This document shows positions 50,915 through 54,657 of a stretch of 64,000 nt of DNA, piece by piece. Within the stretch, counting starts at the first letter, position 1, and every line of letters starts with the position of its first letter. The notes beneath the pieces are model-generated. The model searched no databases, was not told the origin of the DNA, and worked only from the letters and a program-made list of their open reading frames with translations. The stretch comes from Marivivens sp. (GTDB lineage Bacteria; Pseudomonadota; Alphaproteobacteria; Rhodobacterales; Rhodobacteraceae), in assembly GCA_017643845.1 (NCBI GenBank), contig JAEPMR010000010.1, positions 1 to 64,000 on the forward strand, given 5' to 3'. The position numbers were made by a program, and so were the translations under genes.

Positions 50915-51937
50915 ATGGGCTACAAAGTCGTCGTCGTCGGCGCCACCGGTAATGTGGGCCGCGAAATGCTGAACATCCTCGCCGAGCGCGAGTTTCCTGT
51001 GGACGAGATCGCTGCGCTGGCCAGCCGAAAATCTCTCGGCACCGAAGTCAGCTTTGGCGACAAGACACTCAAAACCCAGGATCTCGATGCGTTCGATTTT
51101 GCAGGCTGGGACATGGCGCTGTTTGCAATCGGTTCTGATGCAACAAAAACCTACGCGCCAAAGGCGGCCGCTGCAGGCTGTGTTGTCATCGACAACTCCT
51201 CGCTCTACCGCTACGATCCCGACGTTCCGTTGATCGTTCCCGAAGTGAACGCCGATGCTATCCACGGCTATTCCAAGAAGAACATCATCGCCAATCCGAA
51301 TTGCTCGACCGCTCAGATGGTTGTCGCTCTCAAGCCGTTGCACGACCGCGCCAAAATCAAGCGCGTCGTCGTTTCGACCTATCAGTCCGTTTCCGGCTCA
51401 GGCAAAGAAGCGATTGACGAGCTGTGGGACCAGACCAAAGGCATGTACGTGCCGGGCCAGGAAGTCGCGCCGTCGGTTTACCCCAAACAAATCGCCTTCA
51501 ACGTGATTCCGCATATCGACGTATTCCTCGACGACGGATCCACGAAGGAGGAGTGGAAAATGGTCGCCGAGACCAAGAAGATTGTCGATCCTTCAATCAA
51601 GGTCACCGCAACCTGCGTTCGGGTCCCTGTGTTCGTCGGTCACTCCGAAGCCATCAACATCGAATTCGAGGACTTCCTTGATGAGGAGGAGGCTCGTGAC
51701 ATCCTGCGCGAAGCACCCGGCATCATGGTAATCGACAAGCGGGAAAACGGTGGATACGCCACTCCAGTCGAATGTGTAGGTGATTTTGCGACGTTTATCA
51801 GCCGCATTCGTCAGGACAGCACAATCGAGAACGGGATCAATCTCTGGTGTGTGTCGGACAACCTCCGTAAAGGCGCTGCTCTGAACGCTGTTCAGATCGC
51901 TGAGGTACTCGGGCAGCGCGTGCTGAAGAAGGGCTAA
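50915..51937 (+). CDS. asd: Aspartate-semialdehyde dehydrogenase
   Basis: Asd reduces beta-aspartyl phosphate to aspartate semialdehyde for synthesis of lysine, methionine, threonine and diaminopimelate. The 340-residue product has the NADP motif VVVVGATGNVGREML at the start, active-site Cys C130 in NPNCSTAQMV, VVSTYQSVSGSGKEAIDEL, and RVPVFVGHSEAINIEF with the catalytic His. AAGGAG precedes the ATG. A clear terminator follows 23 bp after the stop. Confidence 0.96.
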   Translation: MGYKVVVVGATGNVGREMLNILAEREFPVDEIAALASRKSLGTEVSFGDKTLKTQDLDAFDFAGWDMALFAIGSDATKTYAPKAAAAGCVVIDNSSLYRYDPDVPLIVPEVNADAIHGYSKKNIIANPNCSTAQMVVALKPLHDRAKIKRVVVSTYQSVSGSGKEAIDELWDQTKGMYVPGQEVAPSVYPKQIAFNVIPHIDVFLDDGSTKEEWKMVAETKKIVDPSIKVTATCVRVPVFVGHSEAINIEFEDFLDEEEARDILREAPGIMVIDKRENGGYATPVECVGDFATFISRIRQDSTIENGINLWCVSDNLRKGAALNAVQIAEVLGQRVLKKG

Positions 51938-51960
51938 ACCGCCTCGAGCCGATCTAAGAG

Positions 51961-51987
51961 AACGCCCGCCATCTGGCGGGCGTTTTT
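51961..51987 (+). terminator. Rho-independent terminator after asd
   Basis: AACGCCCGCC (51961-51970), loop ATCT, GGCGGGCGTT (51975-51984) and a short T-run form a strong hairpin terminator. Confidence 0.9.
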
Positions 51988-52115
51988 GATTCTATTCGAG
52001 CGGTTGACAAGCGCAAAAAACACGTAAAAGGAGAAATATCCCCAGATTATCCTTGGCAAAATCCCACTGATCAGCACTGCAATCTGGAATTTTCTCGGTT
52101 TTTTTACACCTTTAG

Positions 52116-52121
52116 TATAAT
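52116..52121 (+). promoter_or_regulatory. Candidate -10 element TATAAT
   Basis: A perfect TATAAT lies in an AT-rich stretch 200 bp before the short ORF. A fitting -35 hexamer is not obvious at 17 bp (TTCTCG-like), so only the -10 part is supported; start of transcription would be near 52128. Confidence 0.35.
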
Positions 52122-52243
52122 TTTAGATACGTCTGATGCTCTTAGGAGCCTTTTGGCACAAAGACAGCACCAGCAAGTCTCGGCTAGGTTGATGACGTGA
52201 GATGGTCTCCCCCAACCCGGATCAGATCACAACCCAACCTAAG

Positions 52244-52302
52244 TCCCGGGCTGACTGTAAGCCCCCCAATTTTCCCTGCTGGCGAGCAGGTAGCCCGGGA
52301 CA
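52244..52302 (+). ncRNA. Structured C-rich leader hairpin (unclassified)
   Basis: GTCCCGGGCT (52244-52253) pairs perfectly with AGCCCGGGAC (52293-52302); inside it CCTGCT (52276-52281), loop GGCG, and AGCAGG (52286-52291) form a second stem. The left internal loop contains a run of six C, and CTCCCCC occurs upstream near 52208-52214. Exposed C-runs can pair with purine-rich ribosome sites, as in some alphaproteobacterial small RNAs. It lies 20 bp before the short ORF and may control it or be a separate RNA. Confidence 0.45.
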
Positions 52303-52322
52303 GAATAAATTGGAACTGAGTG

Positions 52323-52436
52323 ATGTCTTTGCTCAAGAAAGCACGTGAGGGAAGGATTTCGGCCCTCGAGACTTTGGCAGCACGTCCCCTGAAGACAATC
52401 GTCAGACGGGGCAACCTCCGGCTGATCAAAGCTTAA
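52323..52436 (+). CDS. Possible small basic protein of 37 residues
   Basis: An ORF begins at ATG 52323 with GGAACTGAG upstream and ends at TAA 52434-52436. The product is basic and amphipathic: MSLLKKAREGRI, then ALETLAARPLK, and RRGNLRLIKA (about ten Lys/Arg to two or three acids). A strong terminator starts 23 bp after the stop, and the ORF fits exactly between hairpin and terminator. Third-position GC is lower than in neighbouring genes, so coding is not sure. No family is recognised; binding to RNA or a membrane surface would be guesses. Confidence 0.42.
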   Translation: MSLLKKAREGRISALETLAARPLKTIVRRGNLRLIKA

Positions 52437-52458
52437 CCCCTACTTAAAGAATTAAGAT

Positions 52459-52488
52459 AAGGGTCGCATCGCTGATGCGGCCCTTCTT
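52459..52488 (+). terminator. Rho-independent terminator after the short ORF
   Basis: AAGGGTCGCATC (52459-52470), loop GCT, and GATGCGGCCCTT (52474-52485) form a 12-bp stem with one G-U pair, followed by CTTTTAT. It may also act on the convergent carbonic anhydrase mRNA, whose stop is at 52489-52491. Confidence 0.85.
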
Positions 52489-53139
52489 TTATGACACTGT
52501 TTCAAAACGTCCCGTTTCCGGGTGGTAGCATTCCACCGTTCCCTCACCGATATCATTCCAGAGTCCGTGAAGGCTCATCATTTCACTCTCAACGGCCTCT
52601 TTGACGAACGGGAACGTCATCAGATTTTCGAGAGAAACAAGAACCGCTTCTTTCTCAAGCGCGTCGCATCGCTCCTGATCATCGCCTTCCGGCAATCTGT
52701 CGAACCCGGGGCGCAGAATATCCATCCACCGCCCAATAAAGCTCGTTTTCTTGTCGAGCTCAGGCGCGCGCCCGGAGCACATTTCATAACACCCTTTCAC
52801 GCCACCGCAGCTCGAATGTCCGAGCACGATTAGATGCGCGACCTTCAGTGCATTTACGGCGTATTCCACGGCGGCCGAGGTCCCGTGGTATTCGCCATCG
52901 GGGTTATAGGGAGGTACGAGGCTCGCAATATTTCGGTGAATAAAAAATTCACCCTGATCCGCCCCAAAAATCGACGTTACATGCACACGGCTGTCGCAGC
53001 ATGAAATCACCATCGCACGCGGATGTTGTCCGATCTCCGCGAGGCGTTTGTACCATGCTCTATTGTCCGAGTAATTCGTCGCCCTCCATCCCAGATAGCG
53101 TTTTGCCAGATAGTCGGGGAGGGGCTTGGCATTTTTCAT
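52489..53139 (-). CDS. Beta-class carbonic anhydrase
   Basis: The enzyme interconverts carbon dioxide and bicarbonate with a Zn ion. The 216-residue product has the Zn ligands and dyad in SCCDSRVHV (C48 with D49 and R51) and in HSSCGGVKG (H108 and C111), with HRNIASLVPP in between; it is of beta class. It is cytoplasmic and supplies bicarbonate for biosynthesis or pH balance. It is divergent from the aminopeptidase gene with a 138-bp gap and convergent with the short ORF. Confidence 0.94.
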   Translation of the reverse strand: MKNAKPLPDYLAKRYLGWRATNYSDNRAWYKRLAEIGQHPRAMVISCCDSRVHVTSIFGADQGEFFIHRNIASLVPPYNPDGEYHGTSAAVEYAVNALKVAHLIVLGHSSCGGVKGCYEMCSGRAPELDKKTSFIGRWMDILRPGFDRLPEGDDQERCDALEKEAVLVSLENLMTFPFVKEAVESEMMSLHGLWNDIGEGTVECYHPETGRFETVS

Positions 53140-53277
53140 CTTTTGATCCGTTTATTGTCCCTACTGGATTGATACGCAGCTTTCATGGGAATTTCGAGTG
53201 CTTTCCCTTTGTGCTTGCCTCTTGCGGCCACTTATTGCGGCGCTACTCTGCAACCGAACAAAATAAATAGGCTCATC

Positions 53278-54657
53278 ATGACCGTCAGCTTTGCCGCCCC
53301 TTCCGATAGGGATATTCCACTCCATGCCGTCGCCCCCGCTGATCTGGAATCCCTGCTCGATGGGCTCCCGCCTGCACAATCCACATGGGCACGGGCGAAC
53401 GGCTACGCCGCGAAGCTCGGCCAGACCATCGCAATCCCCGGCATTGACGGCAAAATCGCCTGTGCAATCGTCGGCGTCGGTGATGCAAAATCTCGGCGGC
53501 GGACTCGGTTCGGAACGGCACGCGCCGCTTCCCAATTGCCAGCAGGCACCTATGCGATCAGCGCTGGCGCAAGTCCCGCACTTCGCGCCGAAATCGCTCT
53601 GGGCTGGCTCATGGAGTCTTATCGCTTTTCTCGTTATCGCGACCAAGATCAGCCAAAGGCGCGGCTGGCTCGTCCCGATGGGATCGATTGGGAGAGGATC
53701 GAAGCGATTGCTACAGGAGAATACCTGACACGCGATCTGATCAATACGCCCGCATCAGATATGGGGCCAGATGCCCTCGAAGGGGCGGCACGTGATCTTG
53801 CGGAAAAATTCTCTGCCGAAATCTCGGTCATCACCGGCGACGAACTTCTGTCGCAGAACTTCCCCCTCATTCATACCGTCGGTCGCGCCTCAACCCGCGC
53901 ACCCCGCCTTATCGACATGACCTGGGGCAATTCCGGTCCGTCAATCGTTCTGGTCGGGAAAGGTGTCTGTTTTGACACGGGCGGTCTTAACATCAAGCCA
54001 AACTCTTCGATGGGACTGATGAAAAAGGACATGGGCGGCGCAGCCACCGTCCTTGGTTTGGCGCATATGATTATGTCTCTGAACTTGAATATCCGACTGA
54101 GAGTACTGATCCCCGCAGTGGAAAACAGTATTTCCGGCAATGCATTCCGCCCGCAGGACATTCTGAACTCTCGCAAGGGATTGACCGTCGAGATCAACAA
54201 CACAGACGCTGAAGGGCGCCTTGTTCTAGCCGATGCGCTGGCACTCGCTGATGAGGCAAAACCCGATCTGGTAATCTCTATGGCCACGCTCACGGGCGCA
54301 GCCCGCGTCGCGGTCGGAGGTGACATCGCCCCCTTCTTCACGGATGAAGACCAGATCGCCGCAAAAATTAGCGCAGCAGGCGCGGCGGCCCTTGATCCGG
54401 TCTGGCGCCTCCCCCTCCACCCTGCCTATGAGGCCATGATCGAGCCGGGCATCGCTGACCTCGACAATGCTCCGTCCGGTGGGCAAGGCGGCGCAATTAC
54501 CGCCGCGCTTTTCCTGCGCCGGTTTGTAACTGCATCCTACGTTCATTTCGACATCTACGGCTGGCAGCAGGCCGCTGCACCCGCCCGCCCGAAGGGTGGC
54601 ATAGGCCAAGGTGCCCGCGCACTCCTCGAAGCCTTGCCGAGCCTGCTTGACGCGTGA
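53278..54657 (+). CDS. M17-family leucyl aminopeptidase-like enzyme
   Basis: The 459-residue product belongs to the M17 cytosol aminopeptidases with two metal ions. VGKGVCFDTGGLNIKPNSSMGLMKKDMGGAA carries a Lys and Asp ligand, and NTDAEGRLVLADALALA the Asp-Glu-Arg site, all intact. The N-terminal domain is short. I use the ATG at 53278, where the conserved MTVSFAAP begins; the frame is open from 53185. The product would release N-terminal residues from peptides. It overlaps the next gene by GTGA. Confidence 0.92.
   Translation: MTVSFAAPSDRDIPLHAVAPADLESLLDGLPPAQSTWARANGYAAKLGQTIAIPGIDGKIACAIVGVGDAKSRRRTRFGTARAASQLPAGTYAISAGASPALRAEIALGWLMESYRFSRYRDQDQPKARLARPDGIDWERIEAIATGEYLTRDLINTPASDMGPDALEGAARDLAEKFSAEISVITGDELLSQNFPLIHTVGRASTRAPRLIDMTWGNSGPSIVLVGKGVCFDTGGLNIKPNSSMGLMKKDMGGAATVLGLAHMIMSLNLNIRLRVLIPAVENSISGNAFRPQDILNSRKGLTVEINNTDAEGRLVLADALALADEAKPDLVISMATLTGAARVAVGGDIAPFFTDEDQIAAKISAAGAAALDPVWRLPLHPAYEAMIEPGIADLDNAPSGGQGGAITAALFLRRFVTASYVHFDIYGWQQAAAPARPKGGIGQGARALLEALPSLLDA

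Follow-up and report, generated by a model that had tools for sequence, protein, structure and literature searches.

A small-protein gene and its folded, C-rich leader between asd and can in a Marivivens genome

The interval between asd and can in the 64,000-nucleotide stretch of Marivivens DNA analysed here (the window) contains a small protein gene and a folded, C-rich leader that looks like a switch for its production. We regard this as a modest new regulatory locus and not as a new kind of biology. Both flanking genes are housekeeping genes: asd (50915-51937, plus strand) lies on one side and the convergent carbonic anhydrase gene can (52489-53139, minus strand) on the other. The order asd, small ORF, can is kept in G001, the only further genome of the same genus among those searched. 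The source genome (G000) comprises 3.19 Mb, and its GTDB family has at least 393 genera among those searched. At an E value of 0.001 or better, peptide and DNA matches were obtained in two of the 101 genomes of the first set, G000 and G001; the other 99 gave no match to either the peptide or the DNA at this threshold. Searches of the plasmid collection with two peptides returned no matches, and the DNA search of that collection returned one 49-base match, from Paracoccus, which spans the terminator and the end of the ORF. The initial annotation had described a self-contained small-protein locus with a structured leader. This description holds, with the ORF intact and the leader conserved in G001, and each of the parts that it named (TATAAT, C-runs, 10-bp stem, inner repeat, ORF, and terminator stem) was located in the sequence.

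Comparison with G001 indicates that the 37-codon ORF (MSLLKKAREGRISALETLAARPLKTIVRRGNLRLIKA, 52323-52436, plus strand) is under purifying selection. The two products are identical at 28 of 37 residues (76%), with no indel. Seventeen codons differ by silent changes and nine by changes with replacement, and the differences at codon positions 1, 2, and 3 number 10, 3, and 21, respectively (chi-square p 0.0007 vs equal thirds). A Nei-Gojobori count for the two species gives a dS of about 1.8, a dN of about 0.19, and a dN/dS of about 0.10; the ratio is approximate, as there are just 30.5 synonymous sites, but its direction is clear. This ratio, the third-position excess, and the lack of frameshifts bear out the synonymous-biased change that the initial annotation had proposed looking for. 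It had also proposed a tblastn-type search with the 37-residue product, which found the copy in G001 and then family members in other genera. Frameshifts in relatives' ORFs, with no stem covariation, were to count against the locus; we found no such combination, because in G001 the ORF is intact and is under purifying selection. A weak Shine-Dalgarno-like GGAA (52312-52315, plus strand) stands 7 nt upstream of the start codon in the window and in G001 alike. On the minus strand, an 81-codon frame across the locus was considered and dropped; the G001 locus (L002) has no plus-strand frame of at least 60 codons between 1500 and 1740.

Its sequence places the ORF among the short members of a small-protein family that occurs within the same GTDB family and that we define here by the N-terminal motif LxxKARxxRxxAL (the KAR family). 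We were led to this family by frames that follow asd in G354 (E 0.2; reached via tblastn of asd) and in G014 and that resemble the peptide weakly. In an alignment of 11 members (A8), K6, A7, R8, R11, and A14 are invariant. The A8 profile matched 21 of 139 genomes of the GTDB family at E 0.01 or better; five of these matches were already in A8, three were set aside, and 13 were new, and the 24 members counted here are the 11 of A8 plus the 13 new ones. The three were set aside by judgement (G147, G006, and G026; L122-L124) and are longer proteins of about 89 residues sharing KARRNREAAL. L107 and L108 repeat L106 and L104, respectively, and L079 (G307) was excluded from the family as doubtful. 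Within family loci spanning about 1.5 kb each way, so that farther gene links are missed, 10 of the 24 members are adjacent to asd; six of the 10 lie between asd and can, the window locus being one of them, and three between asd and sbtA. One further member adjoins can only.

The assignment of the window ORF is also indicated by a profile that leaves its genus out. Built from nine members of other genera, this profile placed the window ORF first of 1,834 frames (those of the 64-kb window and of L002), with an E value of 1.9e-6 and about 24.6-24.9 bits, and the ORF of G001 second with 21.1 bits; the next frame scored 5.4 bits, and none of 10,000 shuffled peptides exceeded 12.4 bits. There is some circularity in family membership because the chain of searches started from the window peptide. 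The C-terminal half of the longer members (NVVS...FVSTR...AA) is absent from the 37-residue form; the member at L104 is equally short, with 35 residues. In the predicted structure of a 57-residue member, residues 2-26 form a helix, with a mean pLDDT of 84 for residues 1-10 and 92 for residues 11-20; the model overall has a mean pLDDT of 75 and a pTM of 0.39.

Pfam returned no family for the window peptide (E up to 10) or for eight relatives (E up to 1), and none of these nine peptides matched an NCBIfam model. The product that the initial annotation had called undescribed can thus be described more specifically, as belonging to a family that occurs in other genera, often beside asd, and had no Pfam or NCBIfam match among the nine members scanned. 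In the literature searched, the available text of PMC5036791, PMC8625941, PMC9779115, and PMC10253847 held no description of this locus or of the KAR family. A term search found neither asd nor carbonic anhydrase in the available text of two sRNA papers (PMC4809877 and PMC5107571).

Other features of the family loci were noted in passing. By eye, a second small ORF of the DNVVS..EW/YR...RT..GVFF type often lies upstream of the KAR ORF (L100, L101, L103, L109, and L112); in the window, the structured leader occupies its place. In L100, L101, and L103, an SbtA-like bicarbonate transporter gene is found beside asd, where the window has can, and in L021 an SbtB-like frame occurs alongside the SbtA-like gene; the bicarbonate genes swap at the asd-adjacent place (can vs SbtA-like). 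In another genus, asd is directly followed in L058 by tandem repeats with strong hairpins, which are partly masked by Ns.

The small-gene unit is set apart from asd by the intrinsic terminator of the latter, which has 13 pairs (51958-51987, plus strand) and a core conserved in G001. Beyond it lies a putative promoter region (52103-52135, plus strand), judged from its sequence and from a block common to both species, TACA.CTTTAG.ATA..TTT..GATACG. Conservation with G001 is 0.60-0.65 over 52098-52137, 0.15-0.45 over 52038-52097, and 0.35 over 52138-52157. The TATAAT of the initial annotation is present at 52116-52121, but no -35 partner was recognized for it, and a promoter scan gave 0 promoter-like sites vs 0.6 expected. 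The 12-bp terminator stem noted earlier was found again at the other end of the unit, with 12 pairs at 52459-52485 (plus strand) and a U-rich tail; it lies past the small gene and before the convergent can. G001 has a strong hairpin of different sequence at the equivalent place; termination there is less sure because the tail of this hairpin is not U-rich.

Judging from the two sequences on which the RNA side rests, the leader is conserved both as a structure and in its loop sequence. The folded transcript has a z of -3.4 in the window and -5.0 in G001, and 0 of 100 shuffles were as stable in either. For the two-species alignment of 52150-52340, the consensus energy is -47.3. Column shuffles averaged -21.3 (sd 3.9) and block-wise shuffles -22.1 (sd 3.8), and none of the 400 of either kind reached the energy of the real alignment. 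An upstream reading frame as the cause of the leader's conservation was ruled out by leader indels of 1 and 2 nt.

Hairpin P2 (52197-52230, plus strand) has stems at 52197-52200/52227-52230 and 52203-52207/52220-52224 and a C-rich loop, CCCCCAACCC, at 52209-52218. It is identical to G001 at 31 of 34 bases and at 10 of 10 in the loop, whereas synonymous divergence is about 1.8; all nine of the listed pairs are kept, one through a change from G-U to A-U. An outer helix of P2 (UAGGUUG/CAACCUA, 52185-52241, plus strand) folds in the window, and G001 has a different helix at a like place. This outer helix and the terminator hairpin form in both species by fold and stand outside the pair-by-pair counts. 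Hairpin P3 (52243-52301, plus strand) has a 10-bp stem (52243-52252/52292-52301) and a large C-rich loop that reads CCCC-AA-UUUCCCUGC. Here 46 of 59 bases are identical in G001 and all 10 stem pairs are kept, with one two-sided and one one-sided change.

Several of the leader elements had been named in the initial annotation. Its C-runs are present (CTCCCCC at 52207-52213, and six C at 52262-52267 in the loop of P3), and its perfect 10-bp stem is that of P3. For the inner 6-bp stem, the inverted repeat (52275-52280/52285-52290) is present in the window but broken in G001; the predicted fold and the two-species consensus have a pairing alternative to this stem, leaving the C-run and CCCUGC in the loop. 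Covariation in the hairpins, which it had proposed as a check, is thin: changes that keep pairs exist, but most stem pairs are invariant. Pairing is preserved by a two-sided change at one place in P3a and one in P1b, and by a one-sided change at one place in P2b and one in P3a. The C-rich loops show no change from one species to the other, as would fit a recognition site.

Absent from the initial annotation is a possible long-range helix over the start codon, between 52159-52166 and 52324-52331. In the window fold, the 5' strand of P1a, CAAAGACA (52159-52166, plus strand), pairs with the 3' strand, UGUCUUUG (52324-52331, plus strand), which overlaps the start codon and is placed by the fold and the pair count. 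P1a pairs with a probability of about 0.9 in the window; in G001, the values along its strands span about 0.2-0.9 and are mostly 0.6-0.8. The 5' strand is identical to G001 at seven of eight bases, and AAAGACAGC at nine of nine though its neighbors differ. The inner part of P1 enters the two-species consensus (RNAalifold). P1 is the least certain of the helices because it is weaker in G001, where six of eight pairs are kept in P1a, two of three in P1b, and none of three in P1c; the mechanism proposed below depends on it.

The initial annotation had recognized no known RNA family, and the Rfam scan agrees: for 51000-53500 at E up to 5 it returned four matches, all below the gathering threshold and none within 52116-52488. 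A covariance model for P2-P3, built from G000 and G001, gave strong scores only in these two of 394 genomes of the GTDB family, and with laxer filters only in the same genus (two of 40 relatives). The other matches (E 0.015-0.091, about 19-23 bits) were taken as chance and inspected in part. They include five weak matches in the 394 genomes (E 0.036-0.091), at loci without asd or can by tblastn, and four in the search of 40 relatives (E 0.015-0.091; two shared with the five), L125 and L126 among them. Scanning 84,980 species genomes for the pattern, in a set that may omit records near the window's genome, gave six loci; the model scored these below 10 bits, and we consider them chance. The P2-P3 model matched none of the 23 other loci of the KAR protein family. 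Leader control is therefore not general to this family.

We also compared C-rich elements across the family. The first 11 loci contained 30 runs of at least four C and 11 such runs of G. In the next 18, two of which repeat earlier loci under new ids and three of which were later set aside, the numbers were 39 and 29. A general C-run asymmetry around family members was suggested by the first 11 loci but not upheld in the next 18. Hairpins with a C-run in the loop were found at four of 24 family loci in sense and at two of 24 in antisense orientation, by a script that demands uninterrupted stems and therefore overlooks both leader hairpins of the window; we rejected such hairpins as a family-wide feature. 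At two loci, L100 (1674-1830; G354) and L104 (1605-1720; G051), C-rich-loop hairpins lie directly 3' of the small ORF. Their loops read CCCCAACCC and CCUUCCCCAACCC in L100 and CCCCCCCAAAC and CACCCCCCCAAACG in L104. L100 also has a CUCCUCCC string before the terminator, which together with these loops recalls the window loops and CcsR motifs. In L106 (1436-1500), the leader is very C-rich, with CGCCCCCCGUACCCCCAA repeats immediately before the ribosome-binding site.

We propose, and consider the chances about even, that the small-protein gene is monocistronic and that its own structured 5' leader regulates translation in cis: P1 would sequester the start codon, and the C-rich loops would serve as recognition sites. 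The transcript would begin near 52125-52130 and terminate beyond 52485. As the mRNA emerges, its 5' end (CAAAGACA) would pair with the start-codon region, so that the leader would fold as a P1/P2/P3 junction with the start codon shut. The invariant C-rich loops of P2 and P3 would then be recognized by a trans partner, which might be an RNA-binding protein, a ligand, or another RNA that is rich in G, and binding or release of this partner would open P1 and set the amount of peptide. The N-terminus of the peptide would form a basic, amphipathic helix whose probable role is to bind RNA or a protein partner. The path from conservation to control is one that we infer from sequence. A bolder form of the proposal, in which the twin C-loop leader would found a new RNA class whose two invariant CCCCAA-type loops sense a trans partner and gate the start codon of a new small regulatory protein family situated between an amino-acid synthesis gene (asd) and a bicarbonate gene (can or sbtA), seems to us unlikely.

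The transcript might instead be a dual-function sRNA, in line with the suggestion of the initial annotation, which makes the peptide and whose C-rich loops also pair in trans with G-rich ribosome-binding sites. This would account for loops that are invariant while their flanks diverge, and it is in keeping with the unit's own terminator and with the hairpins of like loop directly after the ORF at L100 and L104. The available text of two papers offers precedents, namely Pos19 (PMC5036791) and the small DUF1127 proteins beside CcsR RNAs (PMC10253847). However, by the C-run and hairpin counts given above the C-rich element is not consistent family-wide, and we hold a dual function to be possible but somewhat doubtful. 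The twin hairpins, the invariant loops, the helix over the start codon, and the lack of an Rfam match would also suit a ligand-binding or ribosomal-protein-type cis element of unknown class, with the C-rich loops as a pocket or in a kissing interaction. Metabolite riboswitches usually spread wider than one genus, whereas the P2-P3 model is confined to one at both filter settings, which makes such an element distinctly improbable.

Two readings leave regulation out altogether. If the peptide alone mattered, the leader would be a structure for stability or insulation; the ORF is indeed the part common to several genera, and the leader is absent elsewhere. Mere stability, however, needs no invariant loop sequences, and here the loops are invariant and not just the stems, so we think this very unlikely. 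That the locus is not expressed and its conservation is due to chance would agree with the lack of a recognized promoter, but it is hard to reconcile with the dN/dS, a structure z of about -6.6, and synteny, and we give it hardly any credence. In this genus the leader is structured and its loops are unchanged although synonymous sites have come close to saturation, so that what binds the loops can be posed as a clear question for experiment. The small-protein family, whose nine scanned members have no Pfam or NCBIfam match and which is repeatedly found beside asd, opens to direct study. Small basic proteins recur together with C-rich RNA elements in alphaproteobacteria, and the locus is a further case.

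Cuckoo (CcsR) RNAs carry a CCUCCUCCC-type anti-Shine-Dalgarno motif; the CCUCCUCCC motif is absent at the window locus, where the loops have the P2 and P3 sequences given above. As far as the available text of PMC10253847 describes it, the CIN1-type locus of Rhodobacter sphaeroides contains ccaF1 (DUF1127) and the CcsR1-4 cuckoo RNAs, and the association of CcsR RNAs with small DUF1127 proteins is well established. In the window locus, too, one putative transcript with its own terminator would combine a gene for a small basic protein with C-rich RNA elements. In contrast, the CcsR RNAs lie 3' of the ORF in that account, whereas the C-rich hairpins are 5' here; moreover, the window peptide has no DUF1127 match and the window locus no Rfam match. 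Pos19 (RSs0019) of R. sphaeroides is a coding sRNA with an RpoE promoter, TGATCC(N15)GCGTA, reported only in R. sphaeroides strains in the available text of PMC5036791. Compared by description and not by sequence, it has a short transcript, a small translated ORF, and its own terminator, which resembles the putative short transcript, predicted small ORF, and terminator of our locus; it differs in its promoter, since no RpoE promoter was noticed here, and in that our ORF has relatives in other genera. In UdsC with RSP_7527, also from R. sphaeroides, an sRNA is contained in the UTR of a small hypothetical protein gene (PMC9779115 and PMC8625941, in their available text). UdsC derives from the 3' UTR, unlike the leader described here, but both loci join a small hypothetical protein gene to an RNA element in its UTR.
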